From Massariosphaeria phaeospora (Eukaryota; Ascomycota; Dothideomycetes; Pleosporales): DNA of 64,000 nt. Every line of letters begins with the position of its first letter. Position 1 is the first letter of the stretch. A program made the translations under genes and the position numbers. Under the pieces are notes generated by a model that ran no database searches, had not been told where the DNA came from, and worked only from the letters and a program-made list of their open reading frames with translations. The DNA lies in contig JAADJZ010000018.1 in assembly GCA_011032825.1 (NCBI GenBank), forward strand, positions 558,001 through 622,000, in the 5' to 3' direction. This document shows, in pieces, positions 53,393 to 54,992 of this stretch.

Positions 53393-54992
53393 TTAAAGAC
53401 CCTCTTTAGCCAGCATGTCTAATTCCAACACCATTAGCAAAGGCAAGGATAAATGCGCATGCAGCAACTAGACGTACCTGTGATGTCGAGGTAGAATGCA
53501 ATAGCGTTGAAGCTGTTTTGTCGTTAGTAAAAGCTCGGATGCAAGAGCAAAAGTGGATACCTACGTCCTCTTGCTTCCCGTAAGCTCCCAAAAGAACCAC
53601 TTCAAACGGTTCGTCCAGTTGATTAAATCTAGGTGACTGACGCCAATCAGGGTACCTTTATAATCCCCCCATTGACTGGAGGACACACTGAGATCTCAGT
53701 AAGTATGATCCGGGTCGAAGTAATGGATTGTTTACCTGACTAGTCCGTCATTGGCGCCCCCTTCAATCCTTTTGATGATACTGTGGGATGCCGCAAAAAC
53801 AGACCAAAACGACGGTTCGAGCGATGCACCGTAGGAGTAATATCTAGAGCAGATCAGAACGACTCATGCCGCATTGGTATATCCGGGCTGGACAAGCAGC
53901 CTCATGACCAGAAGATGACGCCGGACTCGGACCGAACGCCAACGGGTGTAACTCACCTTATCCCCTCAACATTGGGCGTTTTCGCGTTGAAGTTTTTGGT
54001 CATATAGTCACGGGTCAATTGGGAGAATGCTCCTGTCTCGAATCCAAAGTACTCCATAACTTTATATATCCTCTTGATTGCCCGGGCTGGACACCTGTTA
54101 ACAGACCGTAACGTCGATGGCGGCTTTGACTTACGTCCTATGGACTCGAACATGTAATCTGCGAATGCAGAGCCTCGATGGGGGGAAGCTATTGTCGTAA
54201 GAGACAAGATAGTGAACTCTGTTGGCTTGATGCAGCTAATCATATAACGCGAATCAAGTCCACTGGAAACTTTAATCAGTGTTGCTGGATCCGAAGGTGT
54301 GGCTTACCCCTATCATCAAGTCAGTAAACATAAAACGTGAAACCCTCTGTGTAAATGCGACTGTACCATGCTATGCCTGCACGCGTGTTAGTGGCCGTTC
54401 TAGACATGCGAAAAGAATCATAGCGAATATGCTGAGCGATTATACGGTTGAGCTTGATCACCAAGTAGGAATGCAACTTACGCGATAATATTCACATTCT
54501 TTCCCTTGGCCTTTGCAGCGATACTTCCCGCTAGTTTCTCTGCCCTGGCCTCAATGCTTCCACTTGGCGGAACAGCCGCCACTATGACCTCGATACCCCT
54601 CTCACTCAATGCTTCCGTGATCCCTCGCCAGTAGTGTAAGCCTGGGAATTTGCTTCCCGCAAGCCGCAGTTCGTCAAAGCCTAGGAGTCCATGCGCGAGG
54701 ATAATGGTATGTTTCTAGGTGTAGTCGTTAACACGGTATCGTAGGGATGGACGGGTGGCGCGTACTGGGACTTCTATATCATGATTAGTATCACAGATAT
54801 ATCCAATGCGAGCTCCAGAGAGGACTTACCATACTTCTCCCTCATCACGGCGAATTCATCTTTTATGACGCGCCCGAACCTATTCAGCCGGGGATCTTCC
54901 ACTTCAGTAGAAGCCTTTCGATAGGTATAAGTTACGAGCGGAAATGGTCGATAGCAGGAGCGAGCAGTCGCTCGGGAGGAAAGGCGTATCAT
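53393..54992 (-). CDS. Alpha/beta-hydrolase lipase with eleven exons including 8-, 10- and 2-nt exons
   Basis: Predicted 321-residue triacylglycerol lipase-like serine hydrolase. The N-terminus (ATG at 54992) is Arg/Ser-rich like a mitochondrial signal. Exons are 54992-54830, 54773-54766, 54714-54482, 54376-54367, 54309-54308, 54262-54135, 54086-53957, 53843-53736, 53687-53565, 53512-53478 and 53418-53393. They total 966 nt, exactly 322 codons with the stop. Landmarks are ILAHGLLGFDELRLAG (oxyanion side), AHSMGGLDSRYMISCIKP with nucleophile Ser137, TTIASPHRGSAFADYMFE, the putative catalytic Asp in GGANDGLV and His in GVSHLDLINW. The 2-nt exon GG supplies two thirds of Gly139 in the elbow. Each flanking intron has a donor, branch and AG. 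The alternative without it destroys the GxSxG elbow. Confidence 0.82.

Follow-up and report, generated by a model that had tools for sequence, protein, structure and literature searches.

The lipase gene on the minus strand of the window (the whole 64,000-nt stretch of DNA that was analysed) appears to contain an exon of only two bases, GG, which lies between two complete introns at 54309-54308. Taking the evidence together, we consider it very probable that the nucleophile motif of the enzyme is assembled from four exons, this GG exon among them, that the two flanking introns are removed sequentially, and that the arrangement is an old one which is often mis-modelled in deposited annotations.

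Structure of the lipase gene

The gene spans 54992-53393 and comprises 11 exons with 321 codons plus the stop codon. This agrees with the initial annotation, in which retention of GG gave the motif AHSMGG within a single frame of 322 codons. The lipase is 99% identical over its full length to the deposited protein P0001 of Massariosphaeria phaeospora, a member of the Pleosporales within the Dothideomycetes. It matched a single locus in the genome of origin (42.1 Mb in 51 contigs), and there is no second copy for comparison. Three exons of the gene are tiny, with lengths of 8, 10 and 2 nt, and the coordinates of all exons and of the relevant introns are collected in the table below.

Exons and selected introns of the lipase gene. 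Positions are those of the window; donor, branch-like site and total scores are from the splice-site matrices described in the text.
Feature	Position	Strand	Remarks
Exon 1	54830..54992	-	163 nt; ATG at 54992; protein match to P0001
Exon 2, 8-nt microexon AAGTCCCA	54766..54773	-	retained in deposited P0001
Intron 2	54765-54715	-	follows the 8-nt exon; branch-like site weak (2.7); total 14.0, lower than intron 4
Exon 3	54482..54714	-	233 nt; ends in phase 2, within the Ala135 codon
Intron 3	54377..54481	-	105 nt; GTAAGT...CACTAAC...GCAG; score 21.9
Exon 4, 10-nt microexon GCATAGCATG	54367..54376	-	His136, Ser137 (nucleophile by alignment), Met138
Intron 4	54310..54366	-	57 nt; GTACAG...TACTGAC...GATAG; donor 2.3 (weak), branch 8.7 (strong), total 14.8
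Exon 5, GG	54308..54309	-	2 nt; bases 1-2 of the Gly139 codon
Intron 5	54263..54307	-	45 nt; GTAAGC...CACTGAT...CCAG; branch 7.7, total 18.7
Exon 6, start TGGACTTGAT	54135..54262	-	128 nt; opens with the third base of the Gly139 codon (GG/T)
Exon 7	53957..54086	-	130 nt
Exon 8	53736..53843	-	108 nt; Asp257 codon, aligned to the Asp of the bacterial-lipase NDG
Exon 9	53565..53687	-	123 nt; His279 codon (SHLD), aligned to the His of the bacterial-lipase HLD
Exon 10	53478..53512	-	35 nt
Exon 11	53393..53418	-	26 nt, stop codon included

Both introns that flank GG, of 57 nt and 45 nt, were found exactly where the initial annotation had placed them and with the donors, branch site and acceptors it had named. 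At the borders of exon 5 the sequence reads ATAG/GG/GTAAGC (slashes mark splice junctions), with a complete AG before the two bases and a complete GT after them, and each of the two introns carries its own branch-like site, TACTGAC in the first (8.7) and CACTGAT in the second (7.7). Spliced between exons 3 and 6, exons 4 and 5 contribute GCATAGCATGGG.

When compared with solved structures, the protein encoded by the GG-containing model matched Burkholderia-type lipases (1hqd, E 6e-20). Most of the 16 solved sequences matched at E ≤0.001 are true lipases; one is the ribosomal protein mS79. Alignment to the bacterial lipases places AHSMGG over GHSQGG, NDG over NDG, and SHLD over NHLD, and Ser137, Asp257 and His279 are thus likely to form the putative catalytic triad. 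The serine of this triad is present only when both the 10-nt and the 2-nt microexons are included. The matches in Pfam were all weak and general (DUF676, E 3e-6). We predict that the gene product is a bacterial-like triacylglycerol lipase; the label TGL2-type is taken from the names of near relatives, some of which are called triacylglycerol lipase or related to TGL2.

Enumerated splicings and splice-site scores

Splicings with zero to three GT-AG or GC-AG introns were enumerated over the interval bounded by VNII and GLD, both conserved, with each intron at least 40 nt long and with upper limits of 240 nt for the first and 130 nt for later ones. This yielded 254 open in-frame splicings, a single one of which gave HSMG/G: the combination of introns of 105, 57 and 45 nt with the GG exon. 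Enumeration and motif columns alike show that GG is required both for the reading frame and for the conserved HSMGG motif. Without GG the product runs into HSMWT and then a stop. Including GG but not the 10-nt exon leads to a stop as well, and so does retention of either intron 4 or intron 5. The weak donor GTCGCA (-5.9, versus 2.3 for GTACAG), which had been named as the only in-frame alternative, does exist and yields HSMVHG. Single-intron models were also considered and rejected; none of those enumerated restores HSMGG. Exons 4 and 5 are linked, in that the frame is kept with both or with neither: joining exon 3 directly to exon 6 by means of one 219-nt intron is in frame (VNIIA/GLDSR) and scores 21.4. 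The proposal that GG is a genuine 2-nt exon is therefore supported, as this is the sole enumerated canonical splicing that restores the nucleophile motif, and the patterns in homologous proteins described below fit it.

Splice sites were scored using a training set of 94 introns (93 used), which a rule had selected in 264 kb of genomic sequence. The rule demanded a G at donor position +5, good branch sites and a length below 130 nt. As it forced the G at +5, the values for that position in the donor matrix were entered by hand, and as the introns were selected for good sites, low percentiles are overstated. The set has a median score of 20.1 (n=93) and a median length of 58.5 nt, with 5th and 1st percentiles of length at 46 and 43 nt. 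Intron 4 falls at the 4th percentile of this small set selected for good sites, its weakness being due to its donor (2.3); introns 8 and 2 of the same gene, with scores of 11.3 and 14.0, both lie below it (14.8). Intron 5, at 45 nt, is just below the 5th percentile of training length and is thus short and within range. The gene has two further introns of 48 nt each.

The chance of such an arrangement was estimated by 50,000 rounds of dinucleotide shuffling, in which both ends of the 104-nt region were kept in place. None of the 50,000 contained a 2-nt AG/NN/GT exon with both introns scoring as observed, and 3516 held any AG/NN/GT at all. A relaxed cut-off, which demanded at least 11.3 for both introns (the score of the weakest other intron of the lipase gene), was passed by 68 of the 50,000, 12 of these 68 with GG. 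Across 264 kb, on both strands, flanking introns this good were found at two of 2068 AG/NN/GT sites, namely the GG exon and L027:590. The latter, AG/GA/GTAAGC on the minus strand, is surrounded by broken frames and appears intergenic. The 19 single training introns of 88-130 nt contained seven AG/NN/GT sites, none with both halves scoring at least 11.3.

These results bear on three other explanations of the two bases, to each of which we give hardly any weight. A single 102-nt intron with TA...CA ends, keeping the G at either end of the 104-nt region and involving no GG exon, would produce an mRNA that is the same letter for letter. Since the products are identical, cDNA alone cannot separate or exclude this intron, and the Ser/Arg pattern in relatives (see below) does not discriminate between the two either. 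To our knowledge, however, TA-CA is not a known class of spliceosomal intron, and it would leave both AG/GG/GTAAGC and the branch-like site preceding it unexplained; we regard such an intron as extremely improbable. The initial annotation had raised the possibility of a recursive-splice point. That the introns are removed consecutively is probably correct, and complex introns of such a sort are known in Ascomycota, as far as the accessible portions of the literature show. A recursive site in the strict sense (AG/GT) retains zero bases, however; here GG intervenes, and the frame excludes its loss. A stwintron, in which an internal intron interrupts the donor, branch or acceptor of another, fares no better: both introns are complete, with these elements uninterrupted, and enumeration of nested introns with intron 3 pre-removed returned zero solutions giving HSMGG. 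We therefore think there is very little chance that either process takes the place of an exon here. Equally hard to credit is a decayed gene or a sequence error that left a plausible GG by accident. The single matched locus offers no copy against which this could be compared, but the rest of the lipase gene is intact and conserved, and P0001 matches the model along its whole length. The GG exon remains the preferred reading.

The nucleophile motif in homologous proteins

We further examined a list of 282 proteins, P0001 included, which represents the best 120 of each of three homologue searches, and extracted the motif with a text pattern. In deposited P0001, VNIIA passes straight to GLDSR and HSMG, catalytic serine included, is missing; both the 10-nt and the 2-nt exons must therefore have been dropped, while the 8-nt exon was kept. 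Among the matches listed, HSMGG was read in 142 of 282; exactly HSMG is missing in 78 (P0001 being one of them), 38 keep HSM and lack GG, and 14 have an otherwise garbled motif, with 10 of the 14 ending in Ser or Arg. The remaining 10 of the 282 are unclassified and were kept in the denominators; six of them keep HSM and lack both GG and the GLD block.

The 38 listed proteins that keep HSM share a pattern: in 37 of them the second Gly is preceded by Ser (23) or Arg (14), the exception being P0142, which has Thr. The sequences look as if the acceptor AG and the last base of the Gly codon had been translated. If a gene-finding program cannot place a 2-nt exon, it may begin the next exon slightly early, and the acceptor AG would then be translated. 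The exact forms AHSMSG and AHSMRG occur in 13 and 10 of the listed homologues, respectively, and require a further AG, two bases before that of the true acceptor. As true proteins these forms were rejected, given that the glycine two residues after the nucleophile is lost in them and that near-identical Aspergillus niger/A. phoenicis records disagree at this place. Odd labels or extra domains were seen in P0075, P0186 and P0240 (a Venturia 'T-complex protein 1 subunit gamma', and two with Pfam PF03179); these may be gene-model fusions.

Classes were assigned from genus names for the 219 named homologues, with five fungi looked up. Among the matches listed, GG is present in 15 of 72 annotated proteins from Dothideomycetes and 23 of 101 from Eurotiomycetes, compared with 28 of 28 from Leotiomycetes and 8 of 8 from Sordariomycetes. 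Lecanoromycetes, in which Piccolia and Vezdaea were counted although their class is uncertain, have GG in 5 of 8 listed proteins, and Xylonomycetes and Candelariomycetes in 0 of 1 each. Within this list the trouble thus affects only certain classes, which is what one would expect of a shared intron arrangement. HSMGG is present in all 63 listed proteins whose sources do not name an organism. The nearest named listed protein has GG for 49 of these 63, which suggests that most come from lineages without the trouble; for the other 14 it lacks HSMG (6), keeps HSM with Ser or Arg (6) or is unclassified (2). By hand count, 28 of the 63 lie on contigs of at most 2.3 kb, and three (P0077, P0261 and P0275) have product names given by their source. 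The 'lgn' source of the no-organism proteins is, we presume, an assembly of public read sets, and its short intron-free contigs may be transcript-like. Searches for relatives elsewhere found no fungal relative in viral contigs (19 pattern matches, zero relatives) and no fungal contig in bacterial or archaeal genomes, where 10 bacterial relatives were matched.

Near-identical records of the same gene differ at the motif. The open frame of P0009 is full-length and encodes HSMGG; it comes from a no-organism source, with 4.2 kb as the length of its longest contig. Outside the four residues missing from P0032 of Pyrenochaeta sp., which is annotated with the skip, P0009 and P0032 share 99.4% identity. 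In Parastagonospora nodorum, P0010 has GG and P0027 the skip, at 99.5% identity. Records named A. niger or A. phoenicis include GG (P0169, P0134), skip (P0164) and CSSG (P0136) versions that elsewhere align at 99.4% identity or more; for A. niger, P0169 (GG) is identical to P0164 (skip) where aligned and 99.6% identical to P0136 (CSSG).

Traces of intron read-through were sought in a hand-picked set of insertions of at least 16 residues ending in Ser or Arg, which comprises nine records, eight of them independent (P0208 was counted with P0153, both being from close Aspergillus relatives, and the equally long P0138, which ends in Gly, was left out). Back-translation to AG/GG/GT with an intron 5 of 53-64 nt was possible for four of the eight, from Pycnora, Teratosphaeria and two Aspergillus species, and the other four do not fit. 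Residue shuffles give a summed expectation of about 0.55 of eight, and a rate of 0.23 for the longest (Pycnora) alone. In P0116, P0125 and P0153 the fitting site follows soon after Met, and these models must therefore have removed most of intron 4; P0114 is the only record that fits read-through of both introns. The traces are suggestive of AG/GG/GT in relatives. Many deposited proteins for this lipase in related fungi seem to omit the GG exon or to replace it wrongly.

Could the deposited model be right, with exon 3 joined to exon 6 across a 219-nt intron and a protein truly without HSMG? The skip is in frame, uses strong outer sites and corresponds to the database model not only of P0001 but of other fungi as well, as the 78 of 282 listed matches show. 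It would, however, cost the lipase its catalytic serine, although the protein is otherwise conserved and retains Asp and His. HSMGG is read in each of the 63 no-organism proteins and in 36 of 36 from Leotiomycetes and Sordariomycetes among the matches listed, and the near-identical records show one and the same gene annotated both with and without the four residues. In addition, an intron of 219 nt would greatly exceed the median length of 58.5 nt in the training set, which was limited to introns below 130 nt. We consider this explanation quite unlikely, and prefer the GG exon.

Probable order of splicing, related systems and implications

In the splicing that we propose, the nucleophile motif A-HSM-G-G would be built from exons 3, 4, 5 and 6. 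The Ala codon would take its first two bases from exon 3 and its third from exon 4, which would also encode His-Ser-Met. For the first Gly codon, exon 5 would contribute two bases and exon 6 the last. An exon of 2 nt hardly offers room for the factors at its AG and those at its GT to bind at once, which suggests that the introns are removed singly, by intron definition. The stronger intron 5 would leave first, creating ATAG/GGTGGACTT, an ordinary acceptor, and intron 4, with its weak donor, would leave second; we infer this order from the better donor of intron 5. Inclusion of one of exons 4 and 5 alone would lead to an early stop, inclusion of both to the enzyme, and inclusion of neither to an in-frame protein without the catalytic serine. 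Judging from the homologous proteins, the GG-exon arrangement is probably old, common to many Dothideomycetes and Eurotiomycetes, and often mis-modelled.

Since the skip uses two strong sites (21.4) and stays in frame, some skip isoform may exist. A further reading goes beyond this and takes the 10-nt and 2-nt exons as a linked 12-nt cassette that acts as an ancient in-frame on/off switch. With both exons in, an active lipase would be made; with both out, a stable protein without the nucleophile; a half-splice would give an early stop, and the ratio would be governed by intron 4 with its weak donor. We think such a switch unlikely. Were it true, the widely deposited skip model would in part be a real isoform.

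Ultra-short exons are already known, and the initial annotation went too far in calling 2-nt exons close to unprecedented, as 1-nt exons have been published for APC11, VPS55 and CYP621A. The comparisons that follow draw on the accessible parts of the cited papers. The closest parallel is Fusarium CYP621A, in which a 1-nt exon is backed by RNA reads for two species and deposited transcripts are, with one exception, wrong at that exon (PMC12940212). Both cases concern an ascomycete and an ultra-short exon that lies in a conserved motif (PKG in CYP621A), has a complete AG and GT and is required for the frame; unlike the single, RNA-backed 1-nt exon of the P450, the exon described here is 2 nt long, is paired with a 10-nt exon and belongs to a lipase (PMC12940212). 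The same paper credits exons of 2-5 bp to earlier work in Arabidopsis, Drosophila and humans (PMC12940212), and we therefore make no claim to the first 2-nt exon.

Arabidopsis APC11 contains a constitutive 1-nt exon within a 422-nt intronic stretch that was tested with reporter constructs (PMC4674806). Its authors consider intron definition with consecutive removal more plausible and simultaneous splicing unlikely, and they cite the 9-nt exon of potato invertase, for which the second intron is removed first (PMC4674806). Like the GG exon, the APC11 exon is shorter than 3 nt and mis-annotated, but it is a plant exon of 1 nt (PMC4674806). Across land plants, the 1-nt microexons of APC11 and VPS55 have been verified by RNA-seq and RT-PCR (PMC8831610). 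These are deeply conserved and, as in the lipase gene, missing from reference annotations, the difference again being that they are from plants (PMC8831610); the term '2-nt' is absent from the accessible text of that paper. Pezizomycotina stwintrons resemble the present case in having two introns at one place that are removed in consecutive reactions (PMC12403724, PMC5639578). In a stwintron, however, the internal intron interrupts a splice element, whereas the introns on either side of GG are complete, with two coding bases left between them. A term search of the accessible text of PMC5639578 found no mention of microexons. The 20-nt microexon of Trichoderma Xlr2 is also from a filamentous ascomycete, but it is ten times longer and glucose-regulated (PMC11121469).

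In the open-access literature, to which our search was confined, we found no description of a 2-nt exon; phrase matches were unrelated (a splice-prediction rule and a table of deletions). Titles and abstracts on this lipase exon were likewise not found there. What stands out in the present case is the position at the active site, the adjacent 10-nt partner and the apparent breadth of the arrangement.

The GG exon indicates that exon size may fall to two bases at the codon of an active site in a fungus with short introns, and this probably extends to at least two large classes of fungi. The lipase gene offers a clean natural substrate for studying the order in which two introns that share a 2-nt exon are removed. 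Deposited proteins in which the catalytic-serine region is absent or garbled would mislead both enzyme annotation and structure prediction.
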